Below are positions 4,175-26,324 of a stretch of DNA of 52,501 nucleotides, piece by piece. The stretch spans positions 1-52,501 of the forward strand of contig CAIUPH010000110.1 of assembly GCA_903901015.1 (NCBI GenBank), in the 5' to 3' direction. Source of the stretch: Candidatus Bathyarchaeota archaeon. GTDB taxonomy: Archaea > Thermoproteota > Bathyarchaeia > Bathyarchaeales > Bathycorpusculaceae. The notes under the pieces are model-generated. The model searched no databases and was not told the origin of the DNA. It saw only the letters and a program-made list of their open reading frames with translations. The position numbers were made by a program, and so were the translations under genes. The first letter of the stretch is position 1. Each line of letters opens with the position of its first letter.

Positions 4175-4438
4175 GCTTTAACATAAAAAAAGTTTTGTAA
4201 TTAGTCATTATGCTGCGACTACCTAAAAATTCGCATACAATTTTATCGCCGTTAAAGAGGCAAACTGCCATTTATAGCTGCAATCGGCGATATCCTGAGC
4301 AGAGAACCCGCCATAAGCCTGCACACCCATGATACAGAGCAGTAAGCCCTTTGCTCTTTTTTGGTGGCTATTTTCCACTGAAGCTTTTTCAAAGTGTTTT
4401 TATGTGAGACTGCCCTAAGTTACGAGTGGTGTTCTTAA

Positions 4439-4720
4439 ATGGTTGAAGATTTTGAACAAGACGATTTCGACATGATTGACCCAACAGCCAAAAAAGTTCT
4501 CGTAACCCTTTCCCAATTTGAGAAAGGCCTCTTAGTGACGGTGGACCTCTTACACAAAAAAACAGGTTTAATGCCTGAAGCCCTAAACGACGCAGTGCGG
4601 CACCTCTCAAAATCCAAGCTCATCGACATACCCGACCCGACAAAAAAACATGGCCCCTACGATTTCAGCACCGTCGAAATATCCGACTTGGGAAGAGAAG
4701 TGCTAGCGAAATTCGGATAA
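4439..4720 (+). CDS. Small winged-helix-like protein
   Basis: A 93-residue acidic protein. After a short acidic N-terminus (MVEDFEQDDFDMIDPTAKKV), residues 25-65 read as a helix-turn-helix: LVTVDLLHKKTGLMPEALND, then AVRHLSKSKLIDIPDP. The segment STVEISDLGREVLAKFG at the end fits the wing and last helix of archaeal winged-helix regulators. It stands alone, with a different unit on each side. DNA binding is inferred from the fold pattern; the target is unknown. Confidence 0.6.
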   Translation: MVEDFEQDDFDMIDPTAKKVLVTLSQFEKGLLVTVDLLHKKTGLMPEALNDAVRHLSKSKLIDIPDPTKKHGPYDFSTVEISDLGREVLAKFG

Positions 4721-5230: not shown

Positions 5231-5987
5231 AACTGCCCTATATGATGCAATTTTTAAGAGAAAATCAATAAGAGATTACGATCAAACGCCAATTGACTCA
5301 AATCGCCTTGAAGAGATCTCAAGGAACTTGCAGTCATTAAAACCTCTGTTAGCAGACATTAAAACAGAGTTCAAGATTATCTCCCCAAATCAGGTAACCA
5401 GAAAAATCAATAACAATGCACCGCACTATATTGCCGCATTCTCAGAAGCCAAAGACGCCTACAAAATCAACATGGGTTTTATGCTTCAGCAAATGGACCT
5501 TTATTTTTCAACGACTGGATTAGGCAGTTGCTGGTTGGGCATTCCTCAACCAACCAAAGAAGTTAAAGAGTCTTCAAATCTTGAATTCATAGCTTTAATG
5601 TCGTTTGGGAATCCCAAGGAAACACTACACCGGACGAGCGCTTCAGAGTTTCATAGAAAACCGCTTTCAGACATAACCAATATTGAGGGCGCCAACGACT
5701 TATTAGAAGCAGCGCGTCTTGCTCCATCAGCAGTGAACTTGCAAAACTGGTATTTTACTGGTAACAAGAATACAATTCATGCGTATTCCTCCAAAGCTGG
5801 CTTCCTTAGGTCAATGGTAGGCGGCGGTCACTTTCCTGTCAACATGGGTATTGCACTTTACCATTTGAAGCTTGCAACAGAACACTTCGGCATGAAAAAC
5901 AAATTCATTTTTGACCCATCGAAAGATAAAAGTCCACCCAAGAATCTTGAATACGTTGCTACTTTAGAGATTGAACAGACAAGTTAA
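5223..5987 (+). CDS. Nitroreductase-family flavoprotein
   Basis: A 254-residue protein of the putative TM nitroreductase type. The N-terminus has the FMN phosphate-binding motif FKRKSIRDYDQTPID, and the middle (MLQQMDLYFSTTGLGSCWLG) fits the dimer and flavin-contact region. The C-terminal half has EAARLAPSAVNLQNWYF, another flavin-contact motif; the two motifs lie in two halves of one chain, which is typical for the single-chain nitroreductases. It should bind FMN and reduce an unknown substrate with a nicotinamide or F420-type donor. Operon context with an ArsR repressor suggests induction by a metal, oxidant or electrophile. Confidence 0.8.
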   Translation: MNETALYDAIFKRKSIRDYDQTPIDSNRLEEISRNLQSLKPLLADIKTEFKIISPNQVTRKINNNAPHYIAAFSEAKDAYKINMGFMLQQMDLYFSTTGLGSCWLGIPQPTKEVKESSNLEFIALMSFGNPKETLHRTSASEFHRKPLSDITNIEGANDLLEAARLAPSAVNLQNWYFTGNKNTIHAYSSKAGFLRSMVGGGHFPVNMGIALYHLKLATEHFGMKNKFIFDPSKDKSPPKNLEYVATLEIEQTS

Positions 5988-13033: not shown

Positions 13034-13570
13034 TTAGGGCTTTTCCTTTAGCTCCCGATACTTTTCCATGGAGTACTCCACGATTTTCATTGCGTCCTGC
13101 GCGTTTTTCCAATCCCTAATTTTCACCCATTTATGCGGTTCAAGCCGCTTGTAGGTTTCAAAGAACTCTTGAATCTCAATCAAACGGTGTTTATGGACAT
13201 CTTTTATATCGTGGTACCCTTCGAAGCGGGCATCGTTGACAAGAACAGAAAGAATCTTTGCGTCCAATCCTCCTTCATCCTCGATTATTAATGCGCCAAT
13301 CACGCGGACTTTAACTATGAAACCTGCCTTCAAAGGGGCATAGCTTAGAACCATTATGTCTAAGGGGTCTTCATCGTCAAACCATGTCTGCGGAACAAAC
13401 CCGTACTCAACTGGGAACACCACTGATGAAGGAATAACCCTGTCCAGTATGAAAGCTTCCCATTTTATGTCGTACTCATACTTGTCCCGTGAACCGCTTG
13501 CAACTTCGATGACCATGTTCAAAAGTTCAGGTGGATTATCTCCAGTCGGGATGCCGCTCCAAAAATTCAT
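13034..13570 (-). CDS. ppa: Family I inorganic pyrophosphatase
   Basis: A 178-residue soluble enzyme that hydrolyses pyrophosphate and so pulls biosynthetic reactions forward. Family hallmarks are visible: VEVASGSRDKYEYD at about residue 25, EYGFVPQTWFDDEDPLDIMV at about 58-78 (metal-binding acidic residues of the DxDPxD signature), GLDAKILSV with the metal-binding Asp, and HKWVKIRDWKN near the end. Length matches the prokaryotic family. It is on the minus strand between the two oxidoreductase genes, ending 10 bases from the korA stop, which makes a convergent pair and splits korA from korB. Confidence 0.9.
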   Translation of the reverse strand: MNFWSGIPTGDNPPELLNMVIEVASGSRDKYEYDIKWEAFILDRVIPSSVVFPVEYGFVPQTWFDDEDPLDIMVLSYAPLKAGFIVKVRVIGALIIEDEGGLDAKILSVLVNDARFEGYHDIKDVHKHRLIEIQEFFETYKRLEPHKWVKIRDWKNAQDAMKIVEYSMEKYRELKEKP

Positions 13571-13868
13571 ATGTTATCAACCTTTTTTAAAACAGGGGCT
13601 GTGGGCGATTTAAGTTTTCTCAGATTCCTCTGTAACTTTCAGGGAGAGAGCAACTAGAAAAGTGTACTCTCCACACGATCAATCATTTATGGAGGCTTTT
13701 TGCAGAAATGCTTGGCGCTCATATCGCCTTTAGCTGTGACGCTCCTGCTCTCGACCGAGGTTTTCATGGTTACAGCTACCCAATTTTAATCGAGTTAGCG
13801 GCCACGTGTGTGCCAGATTCATTGTTTTAGCAATAAGTCGGTTTCTTTTGTTAACGCGTTGCGGCATG
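13571..13868. other. Divergent intergenic region between ppa and korB
   Basis: About 300 bases without a supported gene. It must carry the ppa promoter (minus strand, close to 13571-13620) and lead into the korB promoter. A short T-run follows the ppa start region; no clear operator is seen in this part. Confidence 0.3.
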
Positions 13869-13893
13869 CATAAATACTGAAAAATTATCAGTA
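13869..13893 (+). promoter_or_regulatory. korB promoter with inverted-repeat operator
   Basis: A TATA-like CATAAATA (13868-13875) is followed directly by the inverted repeat TACTGA (13875-13880) / TCAGTA (13888-13893), with 7 bases between. A site just downstream of the TATA box would block RNA polymerase, as in many archaeal repressors. It may let korB be regulated apart from korA. A leader of about 70 bases would precede the TTG start. Confidence 0.4.
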
Positions 13894-13953
13894 ATTAATC
13901 AGAAAACTACTTCTTCACGAGGAACAGACAGTGCAAATTACAACTAATTCTAA

Positions 13954-14930
<977 letters not shown>

Positions 14931-20802: not shown

Positions 20803-20863
20803 TAAAGTTTAAGGGTAAATGTTTGTTTTAGGTTGCAAGTATTCTACCTTTGAGGTTTGTGGT

Positions 20864-21415
20864 TTGAGCACTAAAGTTGAAACAATCGAAGAAAGGAAAG
20901 CGGAAGTTCTAATCAAACTAAGAAAATACAAGCTTGTCGAAAAAGAAAAGTTTGAAGGCGCATACGCCTACATCATCGACATTCCACAGGATAAAGAACG
21001 AGCGATTGTCTGGTGCATCCTTGGCGAAGCCACAGTCGGCATCGCAGCCATGAACACTCTATACAAAGTGATGAAGGAAAAAGACCTCGACCGCGCCATA
21101 GTAGTTACGGAGGGACGCTACACCCACGCCGTTAAATTGGGCGCAAAGAAGAAAAAAGTCGAGCTTTTGCCCAAATCGTTCCCAGTGTTCGATATCTTCG
21201 AGCACGCACTTGTCCCATTCCACGAAATTCTAACAGAAAAAGAAAGAGCCGCACTACTGGTGCAGTACAAAGTTAAGCCCTACCAGATGCCTCAGGTCAA
21301 ATCAGGCGACCCCGCCGTTAAAGCCATAGGCGCAAAGCCAAGCGACATACTGAAAATCACACGTAAAAGCACCACTGCAGGCGAACACATCAGCTACAGG
21401 TATGTTGTAGAGTAA
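20864..21415 (+). CDS. rpo5: RNA polymerase subunit Rpo5/Rpb5 with N-terminal extension
   Basis: A 183-residue protein whose last 75 residues are the conserved Rpo5 (RpoH) C-terminal domain: FDIFEHALVPFHEILTEKER, then KPYQMPQV, VKAIGAKPSDILKITRKS and TAGEHISYRYV. Archaeal Rpo5 normally consists of just this domain (about 80 residues). Here 100 extra residues precede it, and they align by eye to the N-terminal jaw domain of eukaryotic Rpb5: VGIAAMNTLYKVMKEKDLDR, then AIVVTEGR, parallels [20 protein letters not shown], then ALIVVQQG, recalled for human Rpb5. TTG 20864 is preferred because GAGGT lies 7 bases upstream; ATG 20819 would sit at the predicted transcription start. It stands alone, not next to rpoB. 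Confidence 0.8.
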   Translation: MSTKVETIEERKAEVLIKLRKYKLVEKEKFEGAYAYIIDIPQDKERAIVWCILGEATVGIAAMNTLYKVMKEKDLDRAIVVTEGRYTHAVKLGAKKKKVELLPKSFPVFDIFEHALVPFHEILTEKERAALLVQYKVKPYQMPQVKSGDPAVKAIGAKPSDILKITRKSTTAGEHISYRYVVE

Positions 21416-21552: not shown

Positions 21553-22110
21553 TTATTTTGCAATTATGATTTCTGTCGATTTCACGATTGCGGTAACTTC
21601 GTCGCCAACTTTAATGTCTAATTCGTCGACTGCCTCTTTGGTTATGACTGCAGTGACGGTTACGGGCATTTTAACTTCAACTTTAACTTTCGCGGTTATG
21701 ACGCCTTTTTCAACCGCTAAAACTTTTCCTTTAAACTGATTTCTTGCACTTAACTTCAAACCTTTCACCTCCAAACATCCCGGGTTAGACAACACTTTAT
21801 CTAAGTAAACTTCAACCTGCCTGTACTCACCAAGCAGACTCTTGCCCAAATCAGTCAGTTTTGCGCCGCCTCCGCCTGATTTGCCGCCTTTATAGGTTTC
21901 AACGATTTGTTCCTCCATGGCAATTTGGATTTCCTGTATGTAGTTCCAAACGTATCGGTAGGACATTCCCAGTGACTCTGCAGCTTTAGAAAGCGAGTTT
22001 TCTTTGTCTATGGCTTCCAATATTTCTGCGCCGCCCTTGCCGATTAAGGGTTTGCCTTTGTATTCAAGCCAGGCTTTGCATGAGAGCGTATGTTTTTTGT
22101 TGGTGAGCAT
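21553..22110 (-). CDS. ModE-like molybdate/tungstate regulator
   Basis: A 185-residue protein with two parts. Residues 1-105 are the ModE DNA-binding domain: GKGGAEILEAIDKENSLSKA, then AESLGMSYRYVWNYIQEI and the SGGGGAKLTDLGKSLL segment, all typical. Residues 118-185 are one Mop/TOBE domain (LSARNQFKGKVLAVEKGVIT and VGDEVTAIVKSTEIII), which binds the oxyanion. Bacterial ModE has two Mop domains, so this is the short archaeal form and would assemble oxyanion sites by oligomerisation. It lies just upstream of the tup transporter on the same strand and likely represses it when tungstate or molybdate is plentiful. Confidence 0.85.
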   Translation of the reverse strand: MLTNKKHTLSCKAWLEYKGKPLIGKGGAEILEAIDKENSLSKAAESLGMSYRYVWNYIQEIQIAMEEQIVETYKGGKSGGGGAKLTDLGKSLLGEYRQVEVYLDKVLSNPGCLEVKGLKLSARNQFKGKVLAVEKGVITAKVKVEVKMPVTVTAVITKEAVDELDIKVGDEVTAIVKSTEIIIAK

Positions 22111-22303: not shown

Positions 22304-23020
22304 TTAGAAATCTAGTTCACCGTTGATGAATTTGCGGGTTACCTCGCTTTTGGGGTTCTCAAAGAAATCTTCAGGCGCCGATGCCTCGACGATTTCGCCG
22401 TTGTGAATGTGCACTATTTCATCCGCCATCCGCCGTGCCTGATTGAGGTTGTGAGTCGCCATTATTATGATGCGGCTGCTGCTTTTTTTGGCAAGTATCG
22501 CCTTCTCGATAATGGCTGCGCTGTTGGGATCCAAATTCGCCGTGGGCTCATCCAACAAAAGAACGTTTGAGTTAAGCAGAAACGCCCGTGCCAACGCGAC
22601 CCTCTGCTGCTCGCCGCCCGACAGCTTTTTTGCGCGTCTCTTCTCAAACCCTGAAAGCCTAACCGCCTCCAAAGCTTCAGCGATTCTTTTTGAAATCTCA
22701 CCTTCAGGCACCCCCCTGATTTTAAGCCCATACGCCAAGTTACCGTACACACTTAAGCTGAACATAACGGATTTCTGGAAAACCAACGTGGAAACTCGAC
22801 GTATGGATTTGGCGTCTGTGGTTTGGTTGTTGAATTGGATTGTTCCGCTGTCAGGGTCTTCTAACCCCGCCAGGATTCGCATGAGGGTGCTTTTGCCTGC
22901 TCCATTCGCGCCTAAGAGCACGATTATTTTTCCGCCCATCATATCCAGCGATACAGAGTTCAATGCGGTGACGGCGCGGTAGGTTTTTTTAATATCGGTC
23001 AGTTGCAGGCGAACGCTCAT
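22304..23020 (-). CDS. tupC: Tungstate/molybdate ABC transporter ATP-binding protein
   Basis: A 238-residue ABC ATPase. Walker A is LLGANGAGKSTLMRILAG (about residue 35-50), the Q-loop is STLVFQKSVMF, the signature motif LSGGEQQRVALARAF, Walker B VLLLDEPTANLD and the switch histidine IIMATHNLNQA. The set is complete. It follows the permease by 2 bases, so tupA-tupB-tupC form one operon. The absence of a C-terminal TOBE/Mop domain is typical of Tup-type rather than Mod-type ATPases. The gene provides energy for oxyanion import. Confidence 0.88.
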   Translation of the reverse strand: MSVRLQLTDIKKTYRAVTALNSVSLDMMGGKIIVLLGANGAGKSTLMRILAGLEDPDSGTIQFNNQTTDAKSIRRVSTLVFQKSVMFSLSVYGNLAYGLKIRGVPEGEISKRIAEALEAVRLSGFEKRRAKKLSGGEQQRVALARAFLLNSNVLLLDEPTANLDPNSAAIIEKAILAKKSSSRIIIMATHNLNQARRMADEIVHIHNGEIVEASAPEDFFENPKSEVTRKFINGELDF

Positions 23021-23022
23021 TC

Positions 23023-23769
23023 TTATCTTCCTCCCAACCCACCCCAGAAAATCAACCTATTCAAACCCATATCCTCGTTTCTCAACCGCTCTATGAGGCT
23101 GACGATTAATGCTAGAACCACAACTATTGCCATCAAGATTATCCCATAAGCCATAGCTAAACTGAAATCACCAAAATTTGTCCAAATGGCTATAGAAGTT
23201 GTCAACACTCTTGTCTCGCCTAAGATGCTTCCTCCTACAAGTGATGCGATGCCTAGTTCTCCGAAACACCGGTTGAAGGAAGCTGTTAAAGAAAGCACAA
23301 TGGACCAGATTGTTTCGCGTATAAGAGTCAGGTTCGTCCTAAATCCTGATGCTCCAAGGGTTCTAGCTAAATCTCTAAGTTGAGAGTCGGCTGAACCCAG
23401 CGCGTTTGCGGTGAAACTCACTATTATCGGCGTTACGAGTATGGCTTCGCCGATTGCTATACCGTTGAGCGTGAAGAGAAGGTTCATGAAACCCAGTTCG
23501 CCCTGCCTGGAAAAAAGTAGAAACAAAAGTAAGCCTAAAGCAACGGTTGGTATACCCATTAATGCGTTAAAGATTCCTTTGATAACCCATTTTCCCCTAA
23601 AATTGTAAAGACCTAAAAATACAGCTATAGGAATACTCCACAAGCATGCAAGCAAAGTGCCTAACCCCGCAACGTAGATTGTTCTGTAAACGGTTGCGTA
23701 GACTTCGGGGTCTCCGCTCGTGATTAAGTTAATAGCTTGCTGAAGCGCTGGAACGATTATATCCGCCAT
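23023..23769 (-). CDS. tupB: Tungstate/molybdate ABC transporter permease
   Basis: About 249 residues with six predicted membrane segments and the binding-protein-dependent permease pattern. The EAA-type loop that contacts the ATPase is DLARTLGASGFRTNLTLIRET at about residues 150-175. A glycine-rich segment, CFGELGIASLVGGSILGETR, follows and is typical of Tup permeases. Start ATG 23769 is preferred over an ATG 9 bases earlier because it gives a normal N-terminus (MADIIVPALQQA). It overlaps neither neighbour but sits 2 bases from tupC. Confidence 0.85.
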   Translation of the reverse strand: MADIIVPALQQAINLITSGDPEVYATVYRTIYVAGLGTLLACLWSIPIAVFLGLYNFRGKWVIKGIFNALMGIPTVALGLLLFLLFSRQGELGFMNLLFTLNGIAIGEAILVTPIIVSFTANALGSADSQLRDLARTLGASGFRTNLTLIRETIWSIVLSLTASFNRCFGELGIASLVGGSILGETRVLTTSIAIWTNFGDFSLAMAYGIILMAIVVVLALIVSLIERLRNEDMGLNRLIFWGGLGGR

Positions 23770-23816
23770 GCATATCACAAAGAAAATGAGGGAAATTTAA
23801 TTTTAGCTTTTCCCAA

Positions 23817-25214
23817 CTATGCGCTGTAGATTTTGCTGCTGCTTGGAGTTGGCGTCGCTTGAGCAAGGTTGAGTTTTGGTTTGTTTGTTACGATGTAGTT
23901 TGGCGTGCTAATTGAGGTGTTAACGTTAAAGTTGGCTACCACTGTGTCGTATGAAGCTGAGTATAGGTTGCCTGCGTTGTATCGGAATGCTGCTGGACAT
24001 TCTGTTCCGCCAGCGTTGATTTGGTTAGTCGAATTAATGAAAGCGTAGCCTTTGACCCATCCGAGCATGGTGTCGTTGGTAACTGAGCCGTTCAATAAGG
24101 GTACAAGCGGCGTGAAAAGCGATTGACCGTAAGCTAATTTACCGTAGTTACCTATTACACTTTGGCCTTCGTCGGAAACCAAGTAGTTAACGAATAGTAG
24201 TGAAGCGTTGAAGTTTGTGCTGGCTAAAGCCGTGTTTTGTGGGTTGTCGATTATTGCGCTGTAAACGTTGAGGAGGCTTTGTTGGGCTTGAACTTGTATC
24301 TTAAGTTGAATGTCGCCTTTGTTGTAGTAGGCTAAGTACGTTCCCATGTCGGAAATTGTGTATCCGCCTATGCTGCCATAATAGTTTGCTGATAGAAGGG
24401 TTGGTCCCATTCCTGCGCCTGTAACTTTGAACCATGAAGTCTGAGTGATTAGTTGACTGTAGGTGAAGCCTGCAGAGGTCCAGAGTGAAATTTCCTTCGT
24501 TGCTGTTCCAGATGCATCGTTTCTTGAGAACCATAGAACGCTAGAGTTGTACTGTGGATTGCTGGGTTGCGTAGAGTTATAGATTTTTTGCAAAGCTAAG
24601 CTTACATTGCTCATACCGTTTATCCCTGCGGGGTCACTTGCTGGACCGACGATAACGAAGAAGTTGTACGCAACGGTTTTGCGGTCGACACCGTATCCAC
24701 CTGTTAGGAAGGGCAGTTCCTGCGAGGGTGAATGAACCAGTATCATGTCTGCGTCGCCTCTTTGAGCTGCTGCAATGGCGGGTCCCGTTCCATAGTAGAG
24801 GAAGCTCACTGTTATCCAGGGGTATTTAGCTTGGAACATATCTTTGAGGTCATTTTTCGCTTGGGTGCCGTTGGAGTAAGCTTCAGACACGTCTTCGAGT
24901 CCTGTGTCTTTGAGGCTTGTGGTTGATGCCACTTTTAGTGTTGTGGGGCTTGGCATCGGGGTTGGGGATGGCGAAGGAGAGGCTGTTGGACTGGGCGATG
25001 CAGTTGCAGTTGGACTGGGCGATGCAGTTGCAGTTGGACTGGGCGATGCAGTTGCAGTTGGACTGGGCGATGCCGATGGCGCTGGAGTTGGCGTGGGAGA
25101 TGCTGAAGGCTGATTTTGGGTGCTTTGCAAGTAAGCATAAGAGCCTATTGCGCCGACGATTACAACTATTAATACTAATGCTGCTATTGATGCCGCTGTT
25201 TTCATTTTTTTCAC
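23817..25214 (-). CDS. tupA: Tungstate/molybdate-binding protein with Pro/Ser/Thr linker
   Basis: About 465 residues: a membrane anchor (AASIAALVLIVVIVGAIGSY), then an unusual linker of about 65 residues made of repeated PSPTATAS units, then the TupA fold. TupA signatures are present: KVASTTSLKDTGLEDV, RGDADMILVHSPSQELPFL and WFSRNDASGTATKEI, which hold the oxyanion. The repeated linker lifts the binding domain off the membrane and is probably glycosylated. GTG 25214 and ATG 25205 are both possible starts; the GTG adds a lysine-rich tip and matches the expected transcription start, implying a leaderless message. The reading frame is open further upstream, but that part lies within the promoter. 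Confidence 0.85.
   Translation of the reverse strand: MKKMKTAASIAALVLIVVIVGAIGSYAYLQSTQNQPSASPTPTPAPSASPSPTATASPSPTATASPSPTATASPSPTASPSPSPTPMPSPTTLKVASTTSLKDTGLEDVSEAYSNGTQAKNDLKDMFQAKYPWITVSFLYYGTGPAIAAAQRGDADMILVHSPSQELPFLTGGYGVDRKTVAYNFFVIVGPASDPAGINGMSNVSLALQKIYNSTQPSNPQYNSSVLWFSRNDASGTATKEISLWTSAGFTYSQLITQTSWFKVTGAGMGPTLLSANYYGSIGGYTISDMGTYLAYYNKGDIQLKIQVQAQQSLLNVYSAIIDNPQNTALASTNFNASLLFVNYLVSDEGQSVIGNYGKLAYGQSLFTPLVPLLNGSVTNDTMLGWVKGYAFINSTNQINAGGTECPAAFRYNAGNLYSASYDTVVANFNVNTSISTPNYIVTNKPKLNLAQATPTPSSSKIYSA
24985..25072 (-). repeat. 24-nt tandem repeats in the tupA linker
   Basis: Three perfect, adjacent copies of GATGCAGTTGCAGTTGGACTGGGC (plus strand) at 24997-25020, 25021-25044 and 25045-25068, with partial copies on both sides. 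In frame they encode an eight-residue Ser/Pro/Thr/Ala unit. Their identity at DNA level points to recent expansion or contraction by slippage. Confidence 0.85.
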
Positions 25215-25228
25215 TGGTTTGCATTGAA

Positions 25229-25254
25229 TCGTTATGCAAATATAAACATATCGA
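25229..25254 (-). promoter_or_regulatory. Candidate ModE box enclosing the tupA TATA box
   Basis: TCGTTATG (25229-25236) and CATATCGA (25247-25254) are inverted half-sites matching at 7 of 8 places with 10 bases between; on the minus strand the gap reads TTTATATTTG, the TATA box. The halves recall the bacterial ModE consensus, which has CG-T/A-TATATA arms. Binding would directly block TBP, giving tight repression of tupABC by the nearby ModE-like protein. Confidence 0.55.
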
Positions 25255-25297: not shown

Positions 25298-25513
25298 TCA
25301 CTTTCTTTCTTGCGATAACTCACTCAAAATAACCAATGCTTCACCAAGCGGCATCCCCAAACGCTCTGAAAGTTCTGTTGCCGAAACATCTGCTTTCTGA
25401 GGCAAAACAGTGTCGCGGGTGTAGGCCTTATGAGTTGGATACATCACAGAAGCGTGAACTGCTTCAACGAGCAGTTGCCAGAGTTTCTCTTTGGGGTATT
25501 CATCCAAATTCAT
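25298..25513 (-). CDS. Small helix-turn-helix-like protein upstream of tupA
   Basis: A 71-residue protein with the start MNLDEYPKEKLWQLLVEAVH and a C-terminal segment, ADVSATELSERLGMPLGEAL, that resembles a winged-helix half. I do not recognise the family. It is on the same strand as tupABC, ending 84 bases before tupA, but tupA has its own promoter. It could be a small regulator. Its start is preceded by no strong site. Confidence 0.5.
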   Translation of the reverse strand: MNLDEYPKEKLWQLLVEAVHASVMYPTHKAYTRDTVLPQKADVSATELSERLGMPLGEALVILSELSQERK

Positions 25514-25631
25514 GGGGCATCAACCCATTGATATGTCGTTGAGGTTATTAGTCTACCGCAATGCGTTGTAGGAGGGCACAACAAACTTGATACCCAGCCG
25601 ACACCGATTCAATATTAGAGGTCGATTCTTT

Positions 25632-26324
25632 TTGAAAGCTGCTGTTTACCGTGGAGCCCACAAAATCAAAATCGAAAAAGTCCCCGAACCCGAAGTTAAA
25701 GGCAGAAGGGTGCTGGCGAAGTTTCGTGGGGGCAGCATCTGCGGAACCGACATGCACTTCTATAGGGGTGAATGGGCACTGAAGAAAGGCAGAATCCTTG
25801 GGCACGACGCCTGCGGAGTAAGAGAAGACACTGTCGTACGAGCCGTGATGGTTCCAATCACGAATTGCGGTCACTGCTACTTCTGCCTTCGAGGCATACC
25901 ATCCCAGTGTACTAAAGCCAAGCATTACGGGTTAACAAGTGACGGATTCTTCGCTGAATCCAAAGCAATGCTTCCCCGAAGCCTCATCCACCTCCCCGAC
26001 AACGTAGCCGATAAGGAAGCCGCGATTGTGGAGGAACAGTAAAGACGGTGGAGCAGACGCCGTTTTTAGTGCGTAAAGCAGGCAAAGCTGCGTTAGTTGG
26101 GGAGTCGGAGGGTTACTTGAATTTGGGTGAAGCTGATGAAGCCCAGTTTTCACGAGTTACCTCTCGCCCATCGAGTACCCAGCGGCGGTTGAGTTGATTG
26201 CGCGAAAATCGTCGATTTGAAAGGGCTGATAACGCACAGGTTTAAGCTTGAAGAATTCGAAAAGGCATTGCAAACAATAGAGGAACCAGCGGAGAAAGCC
26301 CTGAAAGTAATAGTTACTAATTGA
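25632..26324 (+). pseudogene. Zinc alcohol dehydrogenase-like gene with internal deletion
   Basis: The N-terminal catalytic half of a medium-chain dehydrogenase is readable from TTG 25632: LKAAVYRGAHKIKIEKVPEP, then SICGTDMHFYRGE, GHDACG and the zinc-lobe cysteines CGHCYFCLRG...C. It stops at 26042. Downstream frames still hold pieces of the C-terminal half: GGADAVFSA, then LPSIEYPAAVELIARKSS and finally LITHRFKLEEFEKALQTIEE to a stop at 26324. Most of the coenzyme-binding Rossmann domain is gone. The total is about 230 codons against 340-350 normally, so this is a pseudogene with a deletion and at least two frame changes. Confidence 0.75.

Follow-up and report, generated by a model that had tools for sequence, protein, structure and literature searches.

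A predicted ModE operator of a tupABC–modE operon in a Bathyarchaeota genome, with a TATA box between its half-sites

E. coli ModE acts in two directions, as a repressor of the importer and as an activator of genes for cofactor and enzymes. In archaea, repressors occur with operators that overlap the BRE or the TATA box, and there the blocking of TBP or TFB binding is the step of repression. The consensus of the E. coli ModE operator is given as ATCGNTATATA-N6-TATATANCGAT in the excerpted text of PMC545781, together with a Geobacter ModE site. In Methanosarcinales, ModE controls modABC (excerpt of PMC9765008), and a 2003 paper cited there has a title that describes the element as conserved in Archaea. 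In short, archaeal ModE elements are already known. The TATA box embedded in the element and the occurrence of the element upstream of aldehyde:ferredoxin oxidoreductase (AOR) genes, both described below, look new; among the literature matches listed, no title deals with ModE operators in Bathyarchaeota, with a TATA box inside a ModE element, or with ModE sites or ModE control at archaeal AOR genes.

The DNA analyzed here (the window, 52,501 nt) belongs to a Candidatus Bathyarchaeota genome of 2.05 Mb in 117 contigs (97% complete). At positions 25229–25254, with no strand assigned, the inverted half-sites TCGTTATG and CATATCGA are separated by a 10-bp spacer; the repeat reported in a preliminary description is present there letter for letter. 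Read on the minus strand, the site is TCGATATG-TTTATATTTG-CATAACGA (with TTTATATTTG as the spacer), and its positions 25230–25253 (CGTTATGCAAATATAAACATATCG) fit the palindrome CGNTAT-N12-ATANCG, 24 bp from CG to CG. The site precedes tupA, tupB, tupC, and modE, which follow each other in that order and in one orientation on the minus strand. The tupA-like gene (23817–25205) codes for an oxyanion-binding protein of an ABC importer (PF12849, 76.9 bits; NF041772 TupA, 126.6 bits for an equivalog cut-off of 400), the tupB-like gene (23023–23778) for a permease (NF038017, 167.1 bits, above the cut-off of 100; NF041773 TupB, 151.2 bits, below the cut-off of 320), and the tupC-like gene (22304–23020) for an ATPase (PF00005, 124.3 bits). 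In NCBIfam, TupA is the only name returned for the first protein and TupB the second name for the permease, both below their equivalog cut-offs. The modE gene (21553–22110), our proposed regulator of the operator, starts 3.1 kb away on the same strand, in agreement with the distance of about 3 kb noted earlier.

A TATA box of tupA, TTTATAT (25246–25240, minus strand), lies wholly within the operator spacer, 35–41 bp upstream of the tupA ATG (25205) and 26–32 bp upstream of an in-frame GTG (25214). The GTGA at 25211–25214 (minus strand) could be a Shine-Dalgarno element or contain the GTG start of tupA. The longest mechanical ORF of tupA has its start codon, a GTG, at 25301; this is upstream of the repeat, which would then be inside the gene. 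We take the start to be 25205 or 25214, since the conserved start region is downstream of the operator in the five tupABC–modE promoters of the genus that could be aligned. In all five, a GTGA comes first, then several A in a row and ATGAA, and TTTAWAT or CTTAWAT occupies the TATA position (5/5); the operator is kept in the five promoters while the sequence upstream diverges.

The predicted ModE (185 amino acids) has a winged-helix DNA-binding domain (TIGR00637, E 1.8e-21, 76.1 bits, under the curated cut-off of 98.5) and, at residues 118–184, one Mop domain (TIGR00638, 71.6 bits, over the cut-off of 55). Its profile matches E. coli ModE in the PDB with E 1.4e-19. The best Foldseek matches of its structure model (mean pLDDT 77, low in the linker) are 1b9m and 1o7l, with an rmsd of 10–15 over the whole chain that reflects a poor fit of both domains at once. 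Its relatives are in Candidatus Bathyarchaeota genomes; of the named ones, isolates palsa_989 (92% identity) and fen_992 (91%) are closest. The SARN motif of Mop domains has a role in oxyanion binding, and its columns are nearly invariant across 20 ModE sequences. SYRYVW, in the region that reads DNA, and the wing, GGGG, resemble the SYKSAW and GGGGA segments of E. coli ModE, a likeness that fits the shared half-site. The two tandem Mop domains of E. coli ModE are replaced here by a single one; we treat one versus two as a feature of the sub-type and not as a requirement of the family. Single-domain forms of ModE are described as well (excerpt of PMC545781).

The two systems compare as follows. 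Common to both are the winged-helix and Mop family of the regulator and an importer operon as the target, a predicted one in the archaeon, and the operators share the 24-bp span from CG to CG and the CGNTAT outer half-site (for E. coli, from the excerpt of PMC545781). The archaeal operator differs by a G-C at positions 7 and 18 and by a TATA box inside the site instead of sigma-70 elements; the importer is Tup-like and the predicted enzyme targets are AOR. With the ModE of Methanosarcinales, the locus has in common an archaeal ModE element and, as predicted here, the control of an oxyanion ABC importer, although the phylum is different and the targets there are modABC and nitrogenase (excerpt of PMC9765008). 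The assignment of the repeat to the ModE type, made at first on its likeness to the bacterial consensus, holds on three counts: the geometry of the E. coli consensus, the presence of modE in the gene row itself, and the recurrence at the tup and modE promoters of relatives. Together they support the repeat as the predicted ModE operator of the tupABC–modE operon.

A palindrome may arise by chance in an A+T-rich promoter, and in the genome of the window the pattern is indeed not enriched when three mismatches are allowed (128 places vs. 140 in the control); because of this, only sites with zero or one mismatch, or matrix scores, are used here. The scoring matrix is built from 23 tup, modE, and wtp sites, all outside that genome. 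In the window, the operator scores 27.1 and the next best place 5.8. With the site-derived pattern at up to three mismatches, 0.45 places are expected per window, and one is found, with zero mismatches. In the whole genome, CGWTATG-N10-CATAWCG occurs exactly once, at the operator, and at four places with at most one mismatch (none in the backwards-read control). A random spread of the repeat had been named as the observation that would speak against an operator; the spread is random at three mismatches but not at zero or one. Among relatives, 80 named loci (737,300 bases) contain 81 sites with a score of at least 12, compared with one in the reversed-sequence control, and 77 of the 81 precede modE or a tupA-like gene. 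As 22 of the 80 loci are, to judge by their length, contigs used for training or first inspection, and loci are also related to each other, these counts are a survey and not a test independent of the matrix scan. With this score gap, the conservation at orthologous promoters, and the survey, a chance palindrome has practically no probability left, and we regard a chance origin as ruled out by the comparative data.

The operator recurs at tup and modE promoters of Bathyarchaeota and Methanomethylicota (with two sites each at modE in four loci of the latter). In Archaeoglobales, two of six loci have one site each, neither at modE, and 14 of the 80 loci have no site at a score of at least 12. Elsewhere, modE and tupABC point away from each other with the operator in between, sometimes as two sites about 25–29 bp apart. 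Across 61 genomes, the summed counts at up to one mismatch are 73 against 39 in the control. Fourteen exact sites occur in 13 genomes: eight are next to tupA or modE, one is before WtpA, one before a gene for a Peripla_BP_2 protein, three before a gene for an ABC_cobalt-type permease (one of the three was scanned), and one is near an Oxidored_molyb gene. Another form of the repeat, CGTTATGTAAAWTTTTACATAGCG, is also recurrent across the genome scan.

Two of these neighborhoods deserve a description. In G003 (C96:80000-92000, locus L114), the exact operator at 5727–5750 is at the start of the Peripla_BP_2 binding-protein gene, and permease- and ATPase-like ORFs adjoin it by eye; the cluster is possibly a MolABC-like oxyanion importer. 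Before the ABC_cobalt-family membrane gene, exact operators are at 4535–4558 (L113, the scanned locus), 4435–4458 (L112), and 728–751 (L111), and molybdopterin-domain-like ORFs follow that gene by eye. The ORF opposite the operator in L112 and L113 is one which we take to be HypF-like.

The position of the TATA box relative to the operator depends on the distance to the gene. For modE operators that begin between −50 and −20 from the start codon, the spacer contains a TATA-like element of the coding strand in 16 of 17 cases. For those that begin between −110 and −51, it is in the spacer in none of 50, and a TATA-like element is at most 20 bp downstream in 47 of 50 (Fisher p 1.5e-14 for 16/17 vs. 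0/50, with relatedness ignored). The one exception among the 17 is the second site of L229, a locus labelled single-site in the tree, where no TATA box is recognized. For tupA operators on the same strand, the TATA box is inside in seven of eight, the site of the window included; the exception is in Archaeoglobus (L253). The tally covers sites other than the two of L226, the L241 site at −177 (where the tupA-like gene is on the other strand), and four unclassed ones (L228, L260, L270, and L274). The embedded TATA is not merely a product of the A+T content of the operator, since it occurs in 16 of 17 near sites and in 0 of 50 further upstream. The suggestion that the TATA box is between the half-sites has in this way gained statistical support, and at some promoters the element, to judge from its sequence, combines an operator with a core promoter. 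On a tree built from the DNA-binding domains of ModE (L246, L269, L270, and L274 left out), the TATA-in-operator state changes at least six times, with 36 of the 73 inner branches unresolved; several origins of this state are suggested. In the archaeal repressors with operators over BRE or TATA, the overlap is the common element; here a single dimer site has the TATA box between its halves, and the arrangement is repeated at several promoters of the predicted regulon.

From these observations, we infer the following control, which we consider probable. The operator would be bound by the archaeal ModE whose gene closes the row that begins with tupA. With tungstate (or molybdate) in ample supply, the oxyanion would sit on the Mop domain and a ModE dimer on both half-sites. 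Bound ModE would cover the TATA box between them, TBP would be excluded, and tupABC–modE would be off, which would put both uptake and ModE itself under negative feedback. In the genus, the loaded dimer would also sit at a fixed distance upstream of the TATA boxes of two AOR genes and turn them on, so that import would go down and enzyme synthesis up together under ample tungstate, the same logic as for E. coli ModE.

ModE could instead repress tup after TBP has bound, by blocking TFB or RNA polymerase, or act without metal as apo-ModE. At divergent one-site loci, the operator lies directly next to the modE TATA box and extends over the presumed start of tupA (a reading by eye), so exclusion of TBP is no general rule; besides, TBP reads the minor groove and a winged helix mainly the major groove. 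Direct competition is nevertheless the best fit to the modE operators at core-promoter distance, with a TATA box in the spacer in 16 of 17, and a later block or an apo-repressor seems clearly unlikely. The mechanism cannot be general, because those one-site divergent operators miss the TATA box and because 12 Mop-less ModE proteins keep the operator. These orthologs (L255, L256, L258, L259, L261, L262, L264, L266, L268, and L271–L273) are 110–120 amino acids long, without the Mop sensor and with the operator upstream of modE; assembly errors are possible.

AOR enzymes are a family of tungsten enzymes. A scan of the genome for sites at tungsto- or molybdoenzyme genes, proposed at the outset as a check, leads to two AOR genes and to a molybdate-importer cluster. 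At up to two mismatches, the genome has 11 places, and four of them are taken as promoter sites: the operator of the window (27.1), the site of AOR2 (23.4), that of a cluster with a ModE-like and a ModA gene on contig C96 (17.5), and that of AOR1 (16.8). The AOR2 site (C92, 19575–19598) has one mismatch and the AOR1 site (C92, 15774–15797) two, each upstream of its gene. The 24-mer of C96 is repeated at the end of contig C4 (L006). Rejected as promoter sites are L002, L004, L005, L008, and L011, all inside ORFs, and L007, which has a score of 2.6 and extends over the start of a permease-like ORF. Since L008 scores 15.9 inside an ORF, scores near 16 are by themselves no proof of a site. Both AOR products contain AFOR_N and AFOR_C domains (far over the Pfam cut-offs), with neither reaching the NCBIfam equivalog cut-offs, and a 4Fe-4S gene follows AOR1 and a similar ORF AOR2.

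In the genomes of the genus with full-length ModE, the AOR1 promoter has a site at −113 to −121 in 8/8. AOR2 promoters have one at −128 to −132 in 5/9, the ninth genome being G003, where modE is cut by a contig end. Altogether, with G003 included, AOR operators occur in 9/9 ModE genomes of the genus and at 13/17 AORs. In the genus without full-length ModE, none of 24 AORs in 14 genomes carries a site, nor does any of 13 further AORs that add eight more such genomes; 22 of the 23 ModE-less genomes of the sample are thus covered (G022 is the one outside), incomplete ones among them (G030, 60%; G008, 80%). Outside the genus, no AOR site is present in any of 14 ModE genomes, with two AORs examined in G032 and one in each of the others; seven distant AOR paralogs in ModE genomes have none either. 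As background, 3 of 1024 reversed-sequence stretches of 700 bp reach a score of 10; the right half-site of AOR1 operators is degenerate, with scores as low as 10.9 in G013 and 10.2 in G023. Loci of the same gene were merged by hand (L130, L133, L138, L166, L168, and L171), L143 (N-terminus missing) and L152 (short upstream region) were dropped, L190 and L192 are outside the scan, and related loci are not independent.

The AOR operators sit clear of the conserved CCATTAACTTAATATA-like core. From operator center to TATA center, the distance is 53–54 bp in 8/8 AOR1 promoters and 69–70 bp in the five AOR2 promoters with a site. An upstream placement of this kind is typical of activators, and the fixed distances suggest activation. 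The preliminary description had not anticipated sites placed in this way at the AOR genes. Between the two spacings there is a gap of about 1.5 helical turns, not expected if both promoters were activated in one and the same geometry.

The main binder could also be a second ModE-like protein, HTH-only, instead of the full-length ModE of the gene row. It is encoded on C96 of the same genome (14259–14588, locus L076), followed by a ModA-type molybdate-binding protein (13157–14143) and ABC importer ORFs, and such a gene is present in most genomes of the genus. The paralog does have the ModE DNA-binding domain (TIGR00637, 58.8 bits), with a two-mismatch site about 107 bp upstream. However, the genomes of the genus with this paralog and without full-length ModE have no AOR sites, and in several of them another repeat, CGATATNAYTNWWWNRTNATATCG, is close to modA-like genes or to genes with a molybdopterin domain. 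That the paralog is the main binder is, on this evidence, quite improbable, and we keep the full-length ModE as the proposed regulator.

The distinct repeat CGATATNAYTNWWWNRTNATATCG occurs with at most one mismatch in 16 of 61 genomes (2 of 61 in the backwards-read control); in the genome of the window, we did not observe it at that threshold. Of the 18 loci examined (L087, L097, L104, L106, and L275–L288, mostly in genomes with the HTH-only paralog), nine have a modA-like gene, six an Oxidored_molyb-like gene, and three neither, the gene being mostly directly beside the site. These neighbors suggest that there is a molybdate branch and that it has a separate operator. There is a parallel with the HTH-only ModE of Desulfovibrio, which is also a Mop-less DNA-binding domain linked to molybdate import (excerpt of PMC545781); the Desulfovibrio repeat given in that excerpt, CGGTCACG-N14-CGTGACCG, is unlike either repeat here.

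As for the co-effector, Mop domains bind both oxyanions, and both TupA and TupB score under the curated tungstate cut-offs; the switch on the Tup-type importer could then respond to molybdate, or to either oxyanion equally. Against this, the predicted targets are the Tup and Wtp importers and the AOR family of tungsten enzymes, and the ModA cluster of the genome has a separate ModE-like gene. We hold a molybdate switch to be unlikely, if less so than the other alternatives, and prefer tungstate-loaded ModE. A broader reading, possible rather than probable, joins the parts: a composite operator-promoter with the TATA box in its center would recur at tupA and modE in Bathyarchaeota and Methanomethylicota and serve as an on/off switch in which ModE competes directly with TBP; operators gained upstream of AOR in the genus would make ModE an activator of tungstoenzymes; and the HTH-only paralog would control a molybdate regulon by way of a repeat that is related yet distinct, so that W and Mo would be read through two sister regulators and two sister operators.

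The prediction is concrete in its sites, its spacings, and its sign at given promoters. The locus would be a clear example of a repressor of bacterial type adapted to an archaeal TBP promoter through a TATA box in mid-palindrome, and the tup and AOR promoters a natural comparison of repressing and activating placements of one operator. The AOR enzymes of uncultured Bathyarchaeota would depend on the use of tungsten, and how these archaea control it may not have been described before.

Two Mop-only frames of 82–83 amino acids, 74%–79% identical to the Mop domain of ModE, occur in genomes without full-length ModE and without an AOR site (G007:C2:209986-210207 and G025:C21:191834-192052; L044 and L045). 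The one in G007 adjoins rpoH, in the place that modE has in relatives. In the window, rpoH (20819–21415, plus strand) codes for a 198-residue fusion in which a restriction-endonuclease fold (NA-iREase1/Mrr_cat) forms the N-terminal part and is joined to RNA polymerase subunit H (Rpb5 C-terminal domain). Relatives of this fusion, mostly near full length, are found in 36 of the 41 genomes searched, several beside modE. Eukaryotic Rpb5 has a nuclease-like N-terminal domain, and the fusion may bear on the origin of Rpb5. Also in the window, a 151-residue frame with a lone ADH_N domain (25587–26042, plus strand) is probably a decayed zinc alcohol dehydrogenase gene.
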